Of a stretch of 51,772 nucleotides of DNA, positions 14,679-32,966 are shown in pieces. Location of the stretch: NCBI GenBank assembly GCA_029887795.1, contig JARXPE010000007.1:1-51772 (forward strand), written 5' to 3'. The stretch's first letter is position 1. Every line of letters begins with the position of its first letter. The DNA is from Thermoproteota archaeon (GTDB lineage Archaea; Thermoproteota; Methanomethylicia; Methanomethylicales; Methanomethylicaceae). Below the pieces are notes generated by a model, which saw nothing but the letters and a program-made list of their open reading frames with translations, ran no database searches and was not told where the DNA came from. Made by a program: the position numbers and the translations under genes.

Positions 14679-16250
14679 TCAGGAGATCAATCTTGAATAG
14701 ACCCCAATAAATACGGGTCCCCTTACGTCGATCTTTCCGCCCTTGCTGGTGATGTACCTCATCCCGACTTCGGTCAGCCTGAGGTTTATGTCGCTGAGGA
14801 GCTTCGCCATCCTGACCCTCAACTCCACCTCTCCCTCCCTCTCTATCTTAGCAGCGGCTGCCTTGGCTATAGCGTCCACGTACCTGATCTTGGTCCTCAC
14901 GCCCTTCTCCCTTGCCTCCTCTATGACCTTCACCTTCTCCATGCCTTTTTCAGGAACACCGAGCACGTTTGCGTTGTAAACCACGATCTCGTTGAAGGCT
15001 GCCGGTCCAACTAGCCTCACATTCGGATCTGGCTCAAAGACCTTCACTGCAACCCTCCTCCCACCAACTAATCCCTCATAAGCCAAGAACTCGCATGGGC
15101 TATTTGCGTCCCTGTTCTCCTCGATCGCCCTGACTATCGCCTTCTCCACAGCCTTTCCCTCCTCAGTTGTGGGCTCATCTATGAACTTGATCTGCCTCGC
15201 CAGCGCCGCATCCGACAAGATCCACTCGCCGTAGAACTGTGGATACGAGAGCTCCCTCACATCATTGTAGCCGTAGAGCAGGGCAGCAACCCTCTCCACT
15301 CCGATCCCTATGTTCAGTACAGGGAACTCTATCCCGTACCTTGCGAGTGCGATGGGGCTGTATAGCCCGAAGTCCACGACCTCGAACCACTCAGATCCAC
15401 CCAGCCTAGCAAAGACCTCGTATTCGGTCCCCGGTGCGTAGTACTTTGCCGTTATCTTCTTTCTCTCGAACCTGACATCCTTAAATCCCAATCTCTTCAG
15501 TATCTCTCCAGCCACAGTCTTCCCGTCCTCCACCGAGACCTCCTCGTCCATTATGACCGAGGATGCTGCATGGTGGAACTTCAGGTGCCTGGCGTCCTCC
15601 TGTTGCTCCCTCCTCGCCCTCAGCCCCACTGAGAAGAGCATGATTGGTCTCTCCAGTTTGTGCTGCACCGCCGCACACGTGAGGAACCACGCGCTAGTCA
15701 TATGTGACCTCAGAAGCTGCCTCGTCGGGATCGGCTCCAGCTTGCTGAACTGCGGAAACGCCTCATTCAAGATCTTCAGTGCAACTGTGTCCTCCACGTT
15801 CAGCGCCTCGGAGATCTTCTCAACAAGGTCATCCCCATCGATCCTGCCCTTCTTGTAGTCGTGGAGCGTCGCTCTTAGCCTCTCGAGGCTGTCTTCATCA
15901 ACGGGAGCGCCAGCCCTCCTTATCGCATCTATCTCCTTTGACCCTATGCCCACGTCTGGTCTGGGCAGGGTGGCTAGGTAGTAGCACCTGTCTAGTATCG
16001 CTGGTGCCTCGCTCCCGTACTGCTTGTATATGTCCGCCTCGTCGACTATCATAGGGTTGACCACCTCGTCGAACCCTAGGTCTAGATAAGCCTCCCGGAG
16101 CCTGTTTATCGTCTCCATGAGCACGTGCGGGCTCCCCTTTCTCCCCGCCATGAAGGCTCCCTTCCCCCCCACGAGGCTCCCCGTCTCCCTCCAGCACCCC
16201 TCAAAGTCCCTTTCCGCCTTCTCCAAGATCTCCCTAATGTTTATTCTCAT
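14679..16250 (-). CDS. sepS: O-phosphoseryl-tRNA(Cys) synthetase (SepRS)
   Basis: A class II aminoacyl-tRNA synthetase (523 residues, normal length) that charges tRNA-Cys with O-phosphoserine; SepCysS (not in this window) then converts it to cysteine. It resembles known SepRS from the start (EKAERDFEGCWRETGSLV) through RPIMLFSVGLRARREQQEDARHLKFHHAASSV to motif 3 NIGIGVERVAALLYG. The enzyme is largely confined to methanogens, Archaeoglobus and some uncultured archaea. ATG 16250 is chosen because GGGGTGA sits 5-6 nt upstream; an in-frame GTG at 16259 would overlap the translin-family gene by 4 nt. Confidence 0.94.
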   Translation of the reverse strand: MRINIREILEKAERDFEGCWRETGSLVGGKGAFMAGRKGSPHVLMETINRLREAYLDLGFDEVVNPMIVDEADIYKQYGSEAPAILDRCYYLATLPRPDVGIGSKEIDAIRRAGAPVDEDSLERLRATLHDYKKGRIDGDDLVEKISEALNVEDTVALKILNEAFPQFSKLEPIPTRQLLRSHMTSAWFLTCAAVQHKLERPIMLFSVGLRARREQQEDARHLKFHHAASSVIMDEEVSVEDGKTVAGEILKRLGFKDVRFERKKITAKYYAPGTEYEVFARLGGSEWFEVVDFGLYSPIALARYGIEFPVLNIGIGVERVAALLYGYNDVRELSYPQFYGEWILSDAALARQIKFIDEPTTEEGKAVEKAIVRAIEENRDANSPCEFLAYEGLVGGRRVAVKVFEPDPNVRLVGPAAFNEIVVYNANVLGVPEKGMEKVKVIEEAREKGVRTKIRYVDAIAKAAAAKIEREGEVELRVRMAKLLSDINLRLTEVGMRYITSKGGKIDVRGPVFIGVYSRLIS

Positions 16251-16255
16251 ACCAC

Positions 16256-16885
16256 TCACCCCTTCAACCTGTCCATGGCTCTCTCTATACTTCCCCTTAT
16301 CAGCCTTCCATGATGCGCCAAGGTCACGTCCGCCCTCGTCTCCTCCACCTGCTTTCTTATCATGTCGACCCTCCTCCTCAGGTTCGGAACAACCGCCCTA
16401 GGGTAGTCCAGCCCCTTCAGCGAGACGTAGACCTCCTCCATGGCCTTGAGCATCCTCTCAGCCTCCTCAATGTTGTCCCTCCTGAGCGAGTCCAAGGCGT
16501 ACCTCCTCATCTCCCCCACTGCGTCCGCAAGCCCCGCAATGTAAGCCTCCGCGGGCACCCCGACATCCTCAGGCTTTGGGAGGTCCTCGCCTTTCAATAT
16601 CGCCGTCACTATGGAAGCCTCGGCGAACTCCTGCATCGCCTGTGGCAGGGCTCCTAGGTATAGGTACTCGGGCTGATCCCTGCAAACCTCCAGTGAGCTA
16701 TGGAGGGCCTGGCGGGCCGCCTCTAGGTTCTCCATGGCGCTGACGGAGTCGCCCCTATGTATAGCCAAAATCGTGCTACCTGCCCTCCTTATAACCTCCC
16801 TGGAGTATGAGATCAGCCTCTCCCTTCTCTCGTCCTTCAACTTAAGCGTCTTGTTTATCTCGGATATTATCTCTGCGATCTTCAC
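16256..16885 (-). CDS. Translin-family RNA-binding protein
   Basis: A 209-residue all-helical protein like archaeal translin/COG2178: RERLISYSREVIRRAGSTILAIHRGD near the start, the conserved EFAEASIVTAILKGEDLP segment and a GLADAVGEMRRYALDSLRR helix. Eukaryotic translin forms octameric rings with TRAX and processes RNA; archaeal function is little known. The start is taken as GTG 16883-16885 behind GGGGG, overlapping the end of taw1 by 44 nt. A longer frame to 16948 would overlap more. It lies between taw1 and sepS, both concerned with tRNA. Confidence 0.8.
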   Translation of the reverse strand: MKIAEIISEINKTLKLKDERRERLISYSREVIRRAGSTILAIHRGDSVSAMENLEAARQALHSSLEVCRDQPEYLYLGALPQAMQEFAEASIVTAILKGEDLPKPEDVGVPAEAYIAGLADAVGEMRRYALDSLRRDNIEEAERMLKAMEEVYVSLKGLDYPRAVVPNLRRRVDMIRKQVEETRADVTLAHHGRLIRGSIERAMDRLKG

Positions 16886-17822
16886 AAACTTGCCCCCTTT
16901 TGGAAACCCTGCTGAGGAGAGCAACCCTACTCGCGGACACGTCGTCAACTAGGTCGTATCCGGATCTCTTGGCTAACTCGCCAGCGAACTCCACAACCTC
17001 CTCATGGTTGGGCATCGCCTCAGCCCCCAACCTCCATATAGACGACCCTACGTGCATGTAAGCCTTCACCTCGACATACGTGGGGTTGCCCATGTTCAGG
17101 ATCCTTGCATATCCATCTGGGTCCTCCATATTTAACCCCTTCACAAGTGTGATCCTTACCACCGTGGGGCAGGAGAAGCTCCTCAGCATCGACAAAGTCC
17201 TCATCAAAGCCTCCCAACTGCCATTCGTAGTGGGTCTGCAGACCCGCTTGTAAACCTCCTCAGACGGCGCGCTCACCGAGACGTATAGCTGTGTGGGCTC
17301 CCTCAGACCCTCCAGCGCCCTAGGGTTCGTCCCATTGGTAACTAGAAATGTCGTCATGCCCCTCCTGTGGAACTCCTCGATCAGCTCCGACAGCTTGGAA
17401 TACAGCGTCGGCTCTCCGCTGAGGCTTATCGCCACGTGCCTAGGTCGGATAGCCTCTTCATACTTAGCCTCAGGAACCTTTGGGTTCCCCTTGTAGCCGC
17501 TCAGCGCCCTCCTATGAGCTTCAATCGCCCCATCCACTATCTCCTTGGGCTCGTCCTCCGCTGGTATCCTGCCGCCCGCCCATTCAAACCCTCTCTCCCC
17601 TGGCAGCGGTCTCCAGCAGTACACGCACCTGTTGGTGCAGTAAACCAACGCCGGGCTCATCTGGAGGCACCTGTGCGTCTCGATGCCGTAGAACTTCCCC
17701 TTGTAGCAGATTTTTCCCTCGGTCAGCGCCTTCCTTACCCAATGGCAAGTCTTTACCCCTGAGTGCCTGCCAACTATCTGGTAACCCTGTGCCCTAAGCG
17801 TCCTGAAAGGCTCGTCTACCAA
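16842..17822 (-). CDS. taw1: tRNA 4-demethylwyosine synthase
   Basis: A 326-residue radical SAM enzyme that builds the tricyclic base imG-14 at position 37 of tRNA-Phe from N1-methylguanosine and pyruvate. It has the radical SAM triad CTNRCVYCWRPLPGERGF (CX3CX2C) plus further N-terminal cysteines (TCHW, ICYKGKFYGI, HRCLQMSP) for a second cluster, then AISLSGEPTLYSKLSELIEEFH and FLVTNGTNP. Start TTG 17820-17822 is 12 nt after the stop of the upstream proteasome subunit. With translin and sepS it forms a probable operon. Confidence 0.92.
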   Translation of the reverse strand: MVDEPFRTLRAQGYQIVGRHSGVKTCHWVRKALTEGKICYKGKFYGIETHRCLQMSPALVYCTNRCVYCWRPLPGERGFEWAGGRIPAEDEPKEIVDGAIEAHRRALSGYKGNPKVPEAKYEEAIRPRHVAISLSGEPTLYSKLSELIEEFHRRGMTTFLVTNGTNPRALEGLREPTQLYVSVSAPSEEVYKRVCRPTTNGSWEALMRTLSMLRSFSCPTVVRITLVKGLNMEDPDGYARILNMGNPTYVEVKAYMHVGSSIWRLGAEAMPNHEEVVEFAGELAKRSGYDLVDDVSASRVALLSRVSKRGQVCEDRRDNIRDKQDA

Positions 17823-17834
17823 AACTACCAGCCA

Positions 17835-18434
17835 CTACTTGGCGGGAAAGAACTCCTCCTTTGCCCCATCCTTGGAGATGACTGCAACGTCTACACCGTC
17901 CCCGGATGCCACGTCCCTGGAGATTGCAGCCCTCACAGCCTTCACCGCCAGCTCCTTGGCTTCGTCGACGCTCATTCCGTCCTTATATCCCTCCTCGATG
18001 ACACTGATCGCCATTGCCCCGCCTGTGCCCAGCGCCGCGAACTTGTCCTCAATCAGCGAACCAAGCTGATCAAGCACGAATAGCCTGTTTCCCTCCTCGT
18101 CCACCCCTCCGACCATAGTCTCAGTGAATACCGGGTAGTACCTCTGCGAGTAGAGTATGTTCGCCAATAGCTTCGCAGCCGACCTGACACTCATCCTCTT
18201 GTGGTAGTCCAACTCGTAGAGCCTGACCTCTGCCCCCAGTCTCCTGAGGATCGCCTGCGCGTCTGATACCAAGCCTGCAAATGCCACGCCGATCCTGTCG
18301 TTTACTAAAAATACCTTCTTACCCGCCTTGCTCATTATCGAGTAACCGTAAGAGATCCTCTTCTCAGAAGCCAGAACAACCCCGTCCTTACACACTATCC
18401 CTACGGTCGTCGCACCTACCGGTGGATATCCCAT
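17835..18434 (-). CDS. psmB: Proteasome beta subunit lacking catalytic Thr1
   Basis: A 199-residue Ntn-fold beta subunit of the 20S proteasome. The usual TTTVG that starts the mature chain reads ATTVG here, so the nucleophile position is Ala. Position 17, normally Asp, is Glu (ASEKR). Lys33 is kept. The pattern resembles the inactive beta type of Crenarchaeota. Other features (GVAFAGLVSDAQ, VGGVDEEGNRLFVLDQLGSLIED, ISRDVASGDGVDVAVI) are intact, so it should still assemble with the active beta at 30.3 kb. ATG 18434 is preferred: the TATA box lies at 18451-18460, too close to an in-frame TTG at 18449. Confidence 0.9.
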   Translation of the reverse strand: MGYPPVGATTVGIVCKDGVVLASEKRISYGYSIMSKAGKKVFLVNDRIGVAFAGLVSDAQAILRRLGAEVRLYELDYHKRMSVRSAAKLLANILYSQRYYPVFTETMVGGVDEEGNRLFVLDQLGSLIEDKFAALGTGGAMAISVIEEGYKDGMSVDEAKELAVKAVRAAISRDVASGDGVDVAVISKDGAKEEFFPAK

Positions 18435-18450
18435 TTGCGCCTCAGGCAAT

Positions 18451-18460
18451 ATTTAAAATC
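18451..18460 (-). promoter_or_regulatory. TATA box of inactive proteasome beta gene
   Basis: TTTTAAATAT on the minus strand is centred about 22-27 nt upstream of the ATG at 18434, so the message is probably leaderless. Confidence 0.45.
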
Positions 18461-18521
18461 CCCCTTCAACATTCAAAGGATGAGTAGCGGATTAAATAAG
18501 CTTTTACTTTGTTGATGACAC

Positions 18522-18758
18522 ATGCCTACCATTAGAGAGACGCTGAACAAGATCAGGTGGACCTTCCCGGAAGGGCTTAAGGGCATAGAGGTAGTTATAG
18601 TCCACAGGGGTGTACCTGGCGATAAGAAGGTTATAAGGGGGGAGGAGATCAAGGACGTTGCCCCTAGGGCGATAATCTGTGATGATGTTGTGATCCCCTA
18701 CCACAGGGTCTTATGTATAAGGAAGGGCGAAGAAATACTGTGGAGGAGACCTCAATGA
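18522..18758 (+). CDS. UPF0248 (DUF504/MJ1316-domain) small protein
   Basis: A 78-residue protein matching UPF0248: VVIVHRGVPGDKKVIRGEEI, then VIPYHRVLCIRKGEEILWRRP at the C terminus. The MJ1316 domain has been proposed to recognise RNA ends and is found fused to RNA-processing enzymes; its role is not proven. Its stop overlaps the start of the NOG1-like GTPase (ATGA at 18755-18758), so translation is coupled. An AAATAAGC box about 27 nt upstream suggests a leaderless transcript. Confidence 0.85.
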   Translation: MPTIRETLNKIRWTFPEGLKGIEVVIVHRGVPGDKKVIRGEEIKDVAPRAIICDDVVIPYHRVLCIRKGEEILWRRPQ

Positions 18759-19780
18759 GGCAGCCTTTCGAGAAAGTACCCACAGTCCTAACCGCAGAGG
18801 AACTAATAAACAAATCCCTCCGTGAGTCCATGGAGGCAGAGGTCTCCATGCCCCAGAAGCTGCCCGCCATAGTCAAGGCGAAGAGGAGGGAGGCTGCCAG
18901 GATCAAAACCGCGGAGAGGATCTCTGCCGGATACCTCGAACGCCTCGTCAAGTCCTTCCCTTCCATAGAGAAGGTTCACCCATTCTACAGAGATGTCTTG
19001 GAGATAACCTTCGGGGTTGCAAACACAAAGTCGCTCCTTGGGCGCATCAGCAGAACCTGTAGGGTTATCAGGGAGATCAGCCGGTCCTCGATCTCCAGCC
19101 TCAAACACGCCTCAACTCCGGGCGAGGCGGCAAGGCTCAGGAGGGTCTTTATGGGGCGCCTATCCTCCCTGATAAGGGAACTCGAGGATGACCTGATCGC
19201 CCTCTCATCCATCAGGGAGAAGATGAAGGACCTGCCAGCCGCAGACCCTGACATGCCTACCGTAATTCTGGCTGGTTATCCCGGGGTTGGGAAGTCCACG
19301 ATCGTGAGGGCAATCTCCTCCGCAAAACCGGAGGTTCGTTCCTACCCATTCACAACCAAGGAAGTGATAATCGGTCACTTCGAAGTTAAAGGCAAGCGAC
19401 TGCAGATTGTTGACACTCCAGGTCTACTCGACAGACCGCTGGAAAAGAGGAGCAAGACCGAAATGCTCGCGATATCCGCCCTAAGTCGCCTTCCTGGGCT
19501 CGTTGCCTTCATAGTCGACGTCTCCGAATCCAACGGCTTTACAATTCAGGACCAGAAATCCCTCTATGATGATCTAAAGAAAACCCTCAGCGCCCATGAA
19601 TTCTTAACTTTCTTCAACAAGACCGACATATCCACGCCCCTGCAGATAGCCACTGCCGAGTCCATATTTGGTTCCTGTACGAAGATGGCAGCAGCCAAAG
19701 GAGAAGGGCTTGAGGAATTCATAAAAGGCGTCTCCGAGGCACTTGAAAAAATCAAGAGCAAAAATTCCAACAGCAATTGA
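18755..19780 (+). CDS. NOG1-like GTPase
   Basis: A 341-residue GTPase of the Obg/NOG1 class, implicated in large ribosomal subunit assembly. Residues 1-150 form a helical domain (FPSIEKVHPFYRDVLEITFGV is typical of NOG1). The G domain follows with P-loop GYPGVGKST, switch RSYPFTTKEVIIGHF, DTPGLLDRP (G3) and FFNKTDI (G4). It lacks the long C-terminal extension of eukaryotic NOG1, as archaeal members do. ATG 18755, overlapping the UPF0248 stop by 4 nt, is chosen over an in-frame start at 18713. Confidence 0.9.
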   Translation: MRQPFEKVPTVLTAEELINKSLRESMEAEVSMPQKLPAIVKAKRREAARIKTAERISAGYLERLVKSFPSIEKVHPFYRDVLEITFGVANTKSLLGRISRTCRVIREISRSSISSLKHASTPGEAARLRRVFMGRLSSLIRELEDDLIALSSIREKMKDLPAADPDMPTVILAGYPGVGKSTIVRAISSAKPEVRSYPFTTKEVIIGHFEVKGKRLQIVDTPGLLDRPLEKRSKTEMLAISALSRLPGLVAFIVDVSESNGFTIQDQKSLYDDLKKTLSAHEFLTFFNKTDISTPLQIATAESIFGSCTKMAAAKGEGLEEFIKGVSEALEKIKSKNSNSN

Positions 19781-30280: not shown

Positions 30281-30937
30281 ATGTTGTCACCACAGGATAT
30301 TGAAGCCAAATTCGCTCTCTATGAGCGGCTGAAGAAGGGCACAACTACGGTAGGTGTAGTTTGCAGAGATGGGATAGTGTTGGCGACCGACCGGAGGGTC
30401 ACTTCGGGACTTTATGTGGCCCACAAAAGGGGGAGAAAACTCTTCGTACTGGATGACAATAAAGCGGCGACGATCGCAGGGCTTGTTGCGGATGCCCAAA
30501 TGATCATGGACTATCTCCGTTCTCACATCAACATGATGAAGCTAGCAAACAGAGGTCCCATCTCGACAAAGTCTGTGGCAACCCTCGCATCCAACATACT
30601 CTTTAGCTCCCGCTATTTCCCGTACATCGTCCAATTCATTGTGGCTGGAGTGGATGAAAGCGGACCTAAAATATACGTATTGGACTGGTTTGGGACATTG
30701 ACGGAGGAGAAGTTTGTATCCACCGGATCTGGCTCCCCCTACGCGGTTGGAGTCTTGGAGGCAACCCTGAAGAGGAACCCCTCGGTCTCAGAAGCCCTTC
30801 CCGTAATAGCCAAGGCGGTTAAGTCCGCCATAGAGAGGGATCCCGGGAGCGGAGAAGGAATAGATGTAATGGTGCTCACTAAGGATGGGATTAAGGAGCT
30901 CACGGATGAGGAGATCTCCAAGCTTCTACAACAATAA
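30281..30937 (+). CDS. psmB: Proteasome beta subunit, catalytically active
   Basis: A 218-residue beta subunit. A propeptide of about 20 residues ends KKG, and the mature chain starts TTTVGVVCRDGIVLATDRR, with Thr1, Asp17 and Lys33 all present. Later blocks ATIAGLVADAQMIMDYLR, FIVAGVDESGPKIYVLDWFG and KSAIERDPGSGEGIDVMVL are typical. It supplies the proteolytic sites of the 20S proteasome, presumably mixed with the inactive beta encoded at 18 kb. It is followed by fttA after about 110 nt in the same direction. Confidence 0.96.
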   Translation: MLSPQDIEAKFALYERLKKGTTTVGVVCRDGIVLATDRRVTSGLYVAHKRGRKLFVLDDNKAATIAGLVADAQMIMDYLRSHINMMKLANRGPISTKSVATLASNILFSSRYFPYIVQFIVAGVDESGPKIYVLDWFGTLTEEKFVSTGSGSPYAVGVLEATLKRNPSVSEALPVIAKAVKSAIERDPGSGEGIDVMVLTKDGIKELTDEEISKLLQQ

Positions 30938-31049: not shown

Positions 31050-32966
31050 ATGGCAAACCAAGGTAGTTTAGACACATTTGCAGAGATTAAGAAGGTCATA
31101 CTACGTGAGATACCTTCTGACGCAAGGCTGACAAAAGTGGAGTTCGAAGGTCCTAACATCGTAGTCTATGTTCAGAATCCTAACTTACTCATAGAGAACA
31201 GCGAACCTGTGAAGAGGATCGTCCACGAGATAAAGAAGCGAATAATAATCCGGGCGGATCCCAGCGCCCGGAAGACCGAGGATGAAGCTAAGAAGATCAT
31301 TGAAGAGATCATTCCGAAAGAAGCCGAGATAACCGATATGAACTTCGACGAGGGGACGGGCGAGGTCACAATACTTGCAAAGAAGCCCGGTCTAGTCATA
31401 GGCAAGGGCGGATCCACTCTCAGGGACATTGCCTACCACACCGGGTGGCGGGCTACCATAGTCCGATCCCCTCCGCTGAAGTCCCGGATCGTTGAGCAGA
31501 CGCTTTACTACATGAGCAAGGAGAGCGAGTACCGCCTTCAATTCCTGAGGAAAGTAGGCAGGAGGATACACCGCCCCCCATTATACAAGAGCGAGTGGGT
31601 CACAGTCACCGCTTTGGGTGGTTTCAGAGAGGTGGGGCGGCAAGCCATTCTCGTACAGACTCTGGACAGCAAGGTCCTAATAGACTGCGGAGTCAAGCCG
31701 GGTGCACAAAACCCATTGGACGAGTTTCCTCGGCTCGATGAGGTCGACCTGCAGGATCTGGACGCCGTGATCGTAACCCATGCGCATCTTGACCACTGCG
31801 GGCTGGTCCCCCTACTCTTCAAATACGGGTACAACGGTCCTGTGTACTGCACAAAGCCAACCAAGAGTTTAATGATACTCCTCCAGCTCGACTACTTGGA
31901 TGTTGCGGTAAAGGAGGGCAGACCTCCCCCCTACGGACTCAAAGAGGTCAAGAAGGAACTCTTGAACACAATAGCCCTGGACTATGGCGAGGTCACGGAC
32001 ATATCGCCCGACATCCGACTAACCCTCCACAACGCGGGTCACATCCTGGGGTCAGCCATGGTGCACCTGCACATCGGCGAGGGTCTTCACAACATAGTCT
32101 ACACCGGCGACTTCAAGTACGCGAGGACGCGCCTCCTTGAGCCGGCAACGTCATCATTTCCAAGGGCTGAGACCCTAATCATGGAAAGCACTTACGGCGC
32201 CCCAAACGATGTGGTGCCCTCAAGGGAAGAGACCGAGCGCCTATTCTTGGATTACATCCGGTCTACCATTCAGCAGGGCGGCAAGGTTCTGATACCCATC
32301 TTAGCCGTGGGAAGGGCGCAGGAGATCATGCTTGTCTTAGACGAGGCGATAAAGCTCGGGGCGATACCGCAGATCCCCGTATACATTGAGGGGATGCTTC
32401 AAGAGGTGACAGCTATACACACGGCATACCCCGAGGACTTGGCTCGCGACCTTAAGAACAGGATCTTCCACAAGGGCGAGAATCCGTTTCTCTCGGAGCA
32501 CTTCGTGAGCGTGGACGACAAGAGCGCAAGGCCCGACATTGCCGAGGGCAGCCCCTGCATAATAATGGCAACCTCGGGCATGCTGACGGGAGGTCCTGCT
32601 TTGGAGTACTTCCGGCTCTTGGCACCAGATCCTAAAAACACAATGATCTTTGTGAACTACCAGATCGAGGGGACACTCGGGCGCTCGATCCTACGAGGAG
32701 TCAGGGAGGTCCCGCTCACAGACCCCACTGGAAAACTGAACGTCGTGGAAGTCAAGATGAACGTAGTGTCCATGGACGGATTCTCAGGTCACAGCGACAG
32801 GAAGCAACTTTTAAGGTTCGTAAATAACCTCTCCCCAAGGCCCAAGCACGTACTCGTGGTACACGGGGAGGAGTCTAAATGTGTGAGCCTCTCGGAGTCT
32901 GTTAGGCGGTTCTTCAGGGTTGACGCGGCAGCTCCCAGTGTCGGAGAGAGGATAAGGGTAAAATAA
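31050..32966 (+). CDS. fttA: Archaeal CPSF1 ribonuclease / transcription termination factor FttA
   Basis: A 638-residue metallo-beta-lactamase/beta-CASP RNase that ends archaeal transcription by cleaving the nascent RNA. Two N-terminal KH-like domains (about 1-70 and 75-145, the second with a VIGKGGS GxxG loop at 117-122) precede the nuclease. The metal motif HAHLDHCG is at 244-251. Further beta-CASP elements are HNAGHILGSAMVH, YTGDFKYA, MESTYG, IIMATSGMLTGGPALEYF and a C-terminal SGHSDRKQL and HGEESKC. Start ATG is preceded by AAAAGGTG. It is full length. Confidence 0.96.
   Translation: MANQGSLDTFAEIKKVILREIPSDARLTKVEFEGPNIVVYVQNPNLLIENSEPVKRIVHEIKKRIIIRADPSARKTEDEAKKIIEEIIPKEAEITDMNFDEGTGEVTILAKKPGLVIGKGGSTLRDIAYHTGWRATIVRSPPLKSRIVEQTLYYMSKESEYRLQFLRKVGRRIHRPPLYKSEWVTVTALGGFREVGRQAILVQTLDSKVLIDCGVKPGAQNPLDEFPRLDEVDLQDLDAVIVTHAHLDHCGLVPLLFKYGYNGPVYCTKPTKSLMILLQLDYLDVAVKEGRPPPYGLKEVKKELLNTIALDYGEVTDISPDIRLTLHNAGHILGSAMVHLHIGEGLHNIVYTGDFKYARTRLLEPATSSFPRAETLIMESTYGAPNDVVPSREETERLFLDYIRSTIQQGGKVLIPILAVGRAQEIMLVLDEAIKLGAIPQIPVYIEGMLQEVTAIHTAYPEDLARDLKNRIFHKGENPFLSEHFVSVDDKSARPDIAEGSPCIIMATSGMLTGGPALEYFRLLAPDPKNTMIFVNYQIEGTLGRSILRGVREVPLTDPTGKLNVVEVKMNVVSMDGFSGHSDRKQLLRFVNNLSPRPKHVLVVHGEESKCVSLSESVRRFFRVDAAAPSVGERIRVK

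Follow-up and report, generated by a model that had tools for sequence, protein, structure and literature searches.

Eukaryotic 20S proteasomes carry inert beta subunits (beta3, beta4, beta6, and beta7) in the same ring as the active ones, which cuts the number of active sites. Three of the seven subunits of this ring are active (PMC13022661), and the same review, from 2026, describes archaeal beta rings as typically made of a single subunit with 14 sites. In the literature that we found, a mixed archaeal beta ring is described only in S. acidocaldarius (PMC4569737). The alpha subunit Saci0613 and an N-terminally truncated Saci0662 formed an inactive 28-subunit cylinder, Saci0909 with alpha but without Saci0662 gave no stable assembly, and the three proteins together produced an active mixed particle in which Saci0909 was in the minority (Anjum et al. 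2015, PMC4569737). Our literature search found no biochemistry for relatives of Saci0662 outside Sulfolobales. Chain H of Saci0662 in PDB 6z46 begins with Met-Thr2, and native residue 1 is thus absent from the published inert construct. The residue called T1 in the Saci0662 study appears to be alignment position 2, native residue 1 having been removed.

We analysed a window of 51,772 nucleotides (the whole stretch of DNA at its full length), which is contig 36 of a Methanomethylicaceae genome of 1.25 Mb that is 92% complete and carries mcrA. The window encodes a beta subunit that resembles Saci0662:

17835 to 18449, minus strand: psmB1, non-catalytic proteasome beta subunit of 204 residues with a TTG start (TIGR03634, PF00227, tree, and AlphaFold model)
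18411 to 18413, minus strand: codon of the Ala at mature position 1, which is Thr in catalytic subunits (translation and alignments)
18414 to 18449, minus strand: 12-residue prosegment LPEAQMGYPPVG (translation and conserved TTG)
18459 to 18467, minus strand: Shine-Dalgarno-like, purine-rich stretch GAAGGGGGA preceding the TTG (alignment of 18 relatives)

The identification of the frame as a proteasome beta subunit, made in an earlier note from the letters alone, is borne out by the profile searches: psmB1 scores 239.3 bits against TIGR03634, above the curated cut-off of 224, and 189 bits against PF00227 (cut-off 22.4). The protein reads ...PPVG-ATTVGIVCKDGVVLASEKR..., with Ala at mature position 1, as the note had said and as translation, alignments, and congeneric genomes agree. 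Since the congeners carry the same residue, Ala1 is not a sequencing error. The start codon at 18449 is TTG in all 18 family members examined, and a GGAGG-like stretch precedes it in most of them. The ATG inside the frame (18434) lacks such conservation in these 18, and we rejected it as a start in favour of the conserved TTG. With this start, the claim that almost no propeptide is left does not hold: the prosegment has 12 residues (that of T. acidophilum has 8), a length that is normal for archaea.

Among the residues that define catalytic subunits, psmB1 lacks Thr at mature position 1 and keeps Lys33, Asp166, Ser169, and an acidic residue 17 (Glu). The replacement of Asp17 had been taken as a further sign of inactivation. 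We discarded Glu17 as a second lesion because two active, crystallised beta subunits have it, that of T. acidophilum (ATERR) and that of A. fulgidus (ATEKR). In Thermoproteota, residue 17 is Glu in 152 of the 161 sequences of the psmB1 type (hereafter beta1) and Asp in all 40 sequences of the Thr1 subunit beta2. The catalytic subunits of T. acidophilum (1pma), A. fulgidus (6he5/1j2q), and M. jannaschii (3h4p) share with psmB1 the fold, Lys33, Asp166, Ser169, and the match to TIGR03634. They differ from it by having Thr1 instead of Ala. Beta1 also tends to depart from active subunits at position 131, which is Ser in 65 of 69 active subunits and in 7 of 161 beta1, the rest having mostly Ala, Thr, or Gly. 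The AlphaFold model of psmB1 (pLDDT 87.8) has the Ntn-hydrolase/proteasome fold, and the best 50 matches obtained with it in Foldseek are all proteasome subunits. It superimposes on the beta subunit of 6z46 with TM-scores of 0.82/0.91 and 46% identity over the core.

Orthologues of psmB1 were read at increasing distance, starting within the genus and ending with the phylum as a whole. In 161 distinct beta1 relatives, a set defined by the absence of Thr1 and for which the tree provides the independent test, position 1 is Ala in 156, Gly in 3, and Ser in 2, and Lys33 and Asp166 are invariant. Ala1 was also found in 80 out of 80 named genome loci, which had been retrieved by a pattern lying outside position 1. 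We built a tree with IQ-TREE from 90 rows, 86 representatives and 4 solved references, leaving out positions 1–3; Asgard and eukaryotic beta subunits are not among the rows. All non-Thr1 sequences fall in one clade (support 100/99, stem of 0.36), every Thr1 sequence is outside it, and the state of position 1 changes once on the tree. Saci0662 (PDB 6z46) is inside the non-Thr1 clade. psmB1 groups there as well in this tree, a check that the earlier note had suggested along with an alignment. The most economical reading of these sequences is that beta1 would have been inactivated in a single ancient event. The dN/dS of psmB1 relative to congeners and family members is 0.009–0.13, within the range of active subunits, which indicates that the gene is not decaying.

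The catalytic subunit that would accompany psmB1 is encoded in the same window, as had been proposed, and is followed by a conserved neighbour:

30281 to 30937, plus strand: psmB2, catalytic beta subunit and presumed ring partner (TIGR03634, 227 bits, and alignment)
31050 to 32966, plus strand: aCPSF1, beta-CASP ribonuclease, downstream of psmB2 (TIGR03675, 930 bits)

psmB2 has Thr1, Asp17, Lys33, Ser129, Asp166, and Ser169, and a prosegment of 20 residues. The adjacent aCPSF1 is found in 35 of 40 beta2 loci. A Thr1 beta2 is present in the host genome and in nearly all other genomes read, and most of the 299 Thermoproteota genomes surveyed have three proteasome subunit genes. Beta1 and beta2 are separated by 2–12 kb in several genomes, a proximity that fits an old local duplication.

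We conclude that psmB1 is very probably a structural beta subunit without catalytic function (beta1, the counterpart of Saci0662), which shares a mixed ring with beta2 in the main 20S proteasome. It belongs to the clade of Saci0662, has the same fold and a residue other than Thr at position 1, and coexists with a separate Thr1 subunit, as Saci0662 does with one other beta subunit, which confers activity. The closest relatives of Saci0662 in the tree also have a non-Thr residue 1 (Ala in L261, Ser in L263). The two proteins differ in that psmB1 comes from another lineage, with a methanogen host and an additional beta3-alpha2 operon. The presence of an inert beta subunit beside an active one is well supported by the conserved Ala1, the strong selection, the orthology with Saci0662, and the Thr1 paralogue. 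For psmB1 itself, our data show that position 1 is Ala, that the predicted fold is that of a beta subunit, that the gene is under purifying selection and orthologous to Saci0662, and that beta2 is encoded alongside it. The inertness, the binding to alpha, and the mixed ring come from the work of others on the Sulfolobus orthologue only. By analogy, the Methanomethylicaceae particle may be built as in Sulfolobus, with alpha1. Beta1 would then fold as a normal beta subunit and contact the alpha ring without providing a nucleophile, and it would share the beta rings with beta2, which would supply the active sites. Such a particle would have fewer than 14 of them. Lacking Thr1, psmB1 would be unable to remove its own prosegment by autolysis; the prosegment would either stay on or be cut back by an active subunit next to it. 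Unlike the eukaryotic ring, this one is expected to contain just two kinds of beta subunits. Four points were counted against this reading. The biochemistry that we found is confined to Sulfolobales, and a few genomes showed no beta1. Since the published Saci0662 construct starts from Met-Thr2, native residue 1 lies outside the inertness test, and the presence of beta3 and alpha2 in the host genome argues against a firm choice of the alpha ring for beta1.

A threonine follows Ala1, and it could be argued that this Thr2 is the real nucleophile, exposed by cleavage between Ala1 and Thr2, and that beta1 is active. Position 2 is indeed Thr in 160 of 161 beta1. However, it is also Thr in 69 out of 69 active subunits, and its conservation must therefore have another cause. 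The spacing between position 1 and Lys33 in psmB1 is that of active subunits. As there is no indel in this stretch, residue 14 of the frame is mature Thr2, which as a nucleophile would be one residue off in geometry, and the scenario by which the earlier note could have been overturned (Thr14 as the true first residue after an indel) fails. In addition, the Saci0662 chain of 6z46 starts at Met-Thr2, and the particle with truncated Saci0662 is inactive (PMC4569737). We thus consider an active beta1 highly improbable. It is also unlikely that beta1 works outside the main 20S core, in separate inert rings or in another complex, e.g., as a decoy or an assembly scaffold. Particles containing only beta1 are physically possible, because Saci0662 and alpha alone form a full inert cylinder (PMC4569737), and the beta3 and alpha2 genes of the host genome also speak for this idea. 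Yet mixed active particles have been isolated, Saci0909 needs Saci0662 to assemble stably (PMC4569737), and the usual set across the phylum is one of three subunit genes. The loss of a catalytic residue could also point to a decaying pseudogene or to an artefact in the assembly of the host genome. We give practically no weight to this explanation, which is refuted by the congeners and the dN/dS values: Ala1 is common to the congeners and about 150 other sequences, and the frame is intact and scores above the curated TIGR03634 cut-off.

The structural subunit proposed here has the following neighbours, among them one of the methanogen-type genes near beta1:

16842 to 17822, minus strand: TYW1 (4-demethylwyosine synthase), 12 bases downstream of psmB1 (TIGR03972, 423 bits)
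18713 to 19780, plus strand: NOG1-type GTPase, divergent neighbour of psmB1 (PF17835/PF06858)
14679 to 16259, minus strand: SepRS (O-phosphoserine-tRNA ligase), methanogen-type gene near beta1 (TIGR00470, 614 bits)

A TYW1 homologue is found in 46 of the 161 beta1 loci (the flanks are limited), and a NOG1-type GTPase is near beta1 in 33 loci. A protein of the Translin family (PF01997; 16256 to 16948, minus strand) adjoins TYW1 and SepRS, with a homologue in 25 beta1 loci. The nearest named relatives of the psmB1 protein are in Methanomethylicales MAG-3 (98%) and Methanomethylicota WYZ-LMO10 (96%); other Methanomethylicota come next, Methanosuratincola and Methanomethylicus among them. We rejected the idea that a methanogen took up this gene horizontally from crenarchaea, because beta1 groups with its own class and the phylum carries it throughout. 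The earlier note had described a mixed active/inactive ring as a crenarchaeal-type trait, found here along with methanogen genes. The inert subunit beside an active one stands. The surprise that the note implies is not supported, because the trait is phylum-wide and the Methanomethylicaceae lie within Thermoproteota, where SepRS and a ‘crenarchaeal’ proteasome gene are expected together. Overall, the observation is partly confirmed and its interpretation partly supported.

Our search found no PAN above the cut-off in the 92%-complete host genome. The best matches are two tandem-AAA, Cdc48-like proteins in frames of 724 and 753 residues (G000:C23:30611-32395 and C6:12292-13881), which may be the unfoldases. 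The search of the host genome for a ubiquitin gene is uninformative either way, the family having been matched in none of the control genomes. No beta1 was found in three of the genomes read: G292 (98% complete), G247 (92%, fragmented), and G059 (86%). A congener of G059 (G080) has beta1. In G292 and G247 the cause may be either a gap in the assembly or a genuine loss, and beta1 may perhaps not be indispensable in every genome. G247 has two Thr1 beta subunits (L267 and L276).

psmB1 is thus ordinary for its lineage, and inert structural subunits of this kind were already known from Sulfolobus. What the survey adds is that the Sulfolobus-type inert beta is the rule in nearly the whole phylum Thermoproteota, including methanogens and Bathyarchaeota, and presumably also the ammonia oxidisers. 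The most economical reading is that a homogeneous ring of 14 sites does not describe Thermoproteota. Routine annotation hides the inert subunits, since they are named endopeptidase complex beta by the NCBIfam model. In our search, which left most of the subscription literature aside, we found no paper stating that Ala1 is phylum-wide, and we claim no novelty for it.

The host genome has five proteasome genes (alpha1, beta1, beta2, beta3, and alpha2), two of which form a second operon on another contig:

G000:C12:88351-89600 (L094:4352-5625), contig 12: beta3, then alpha2

By sequence, beta3 has the full set of catalytic residues and no prosegment; a start codon (ATG, TTG, or GTG) immediately precedes Thr1 in every homologue read. 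In bacterial HslV, Thr1 is exposed by removal of Met, and by analogy the removal of the initiator Met may expose Thr1 of beta3. Both proteins score below the curated archaeal equivalog profiles (219 bits for beta3 against a cut-off of 224, 203 for alpha2 against 287), and beta3 forms its own clade in the IQ-TREE tree (100/100, stem of 0.96). It is patchily distributed in 25 of the 299 Thermoproteota genomes, with a clear gap in scores from 220 to 173 bits: it occurs in five genera of the host family (g1 to g5), not in two others (g6 and g7), and in scattered members of three other families. It is conceivable, at slightly under even odds, that these methanogens have two types of 20S proteasomes, a mixed alpha1-beta1-beta2 core and a uniformly active beta3-alpha2 core maturing by Met removal. 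If so, 20S cores of two kinds would be present in one cell, with unequal numbers of active sites and distinct ways of maturing.

The two beta1 orthologues with Ser at position 1 (L263:1483-2073 and L265:1486-2076) belong to families f27 and f20, and they might retain, or have regained, a weak activity.
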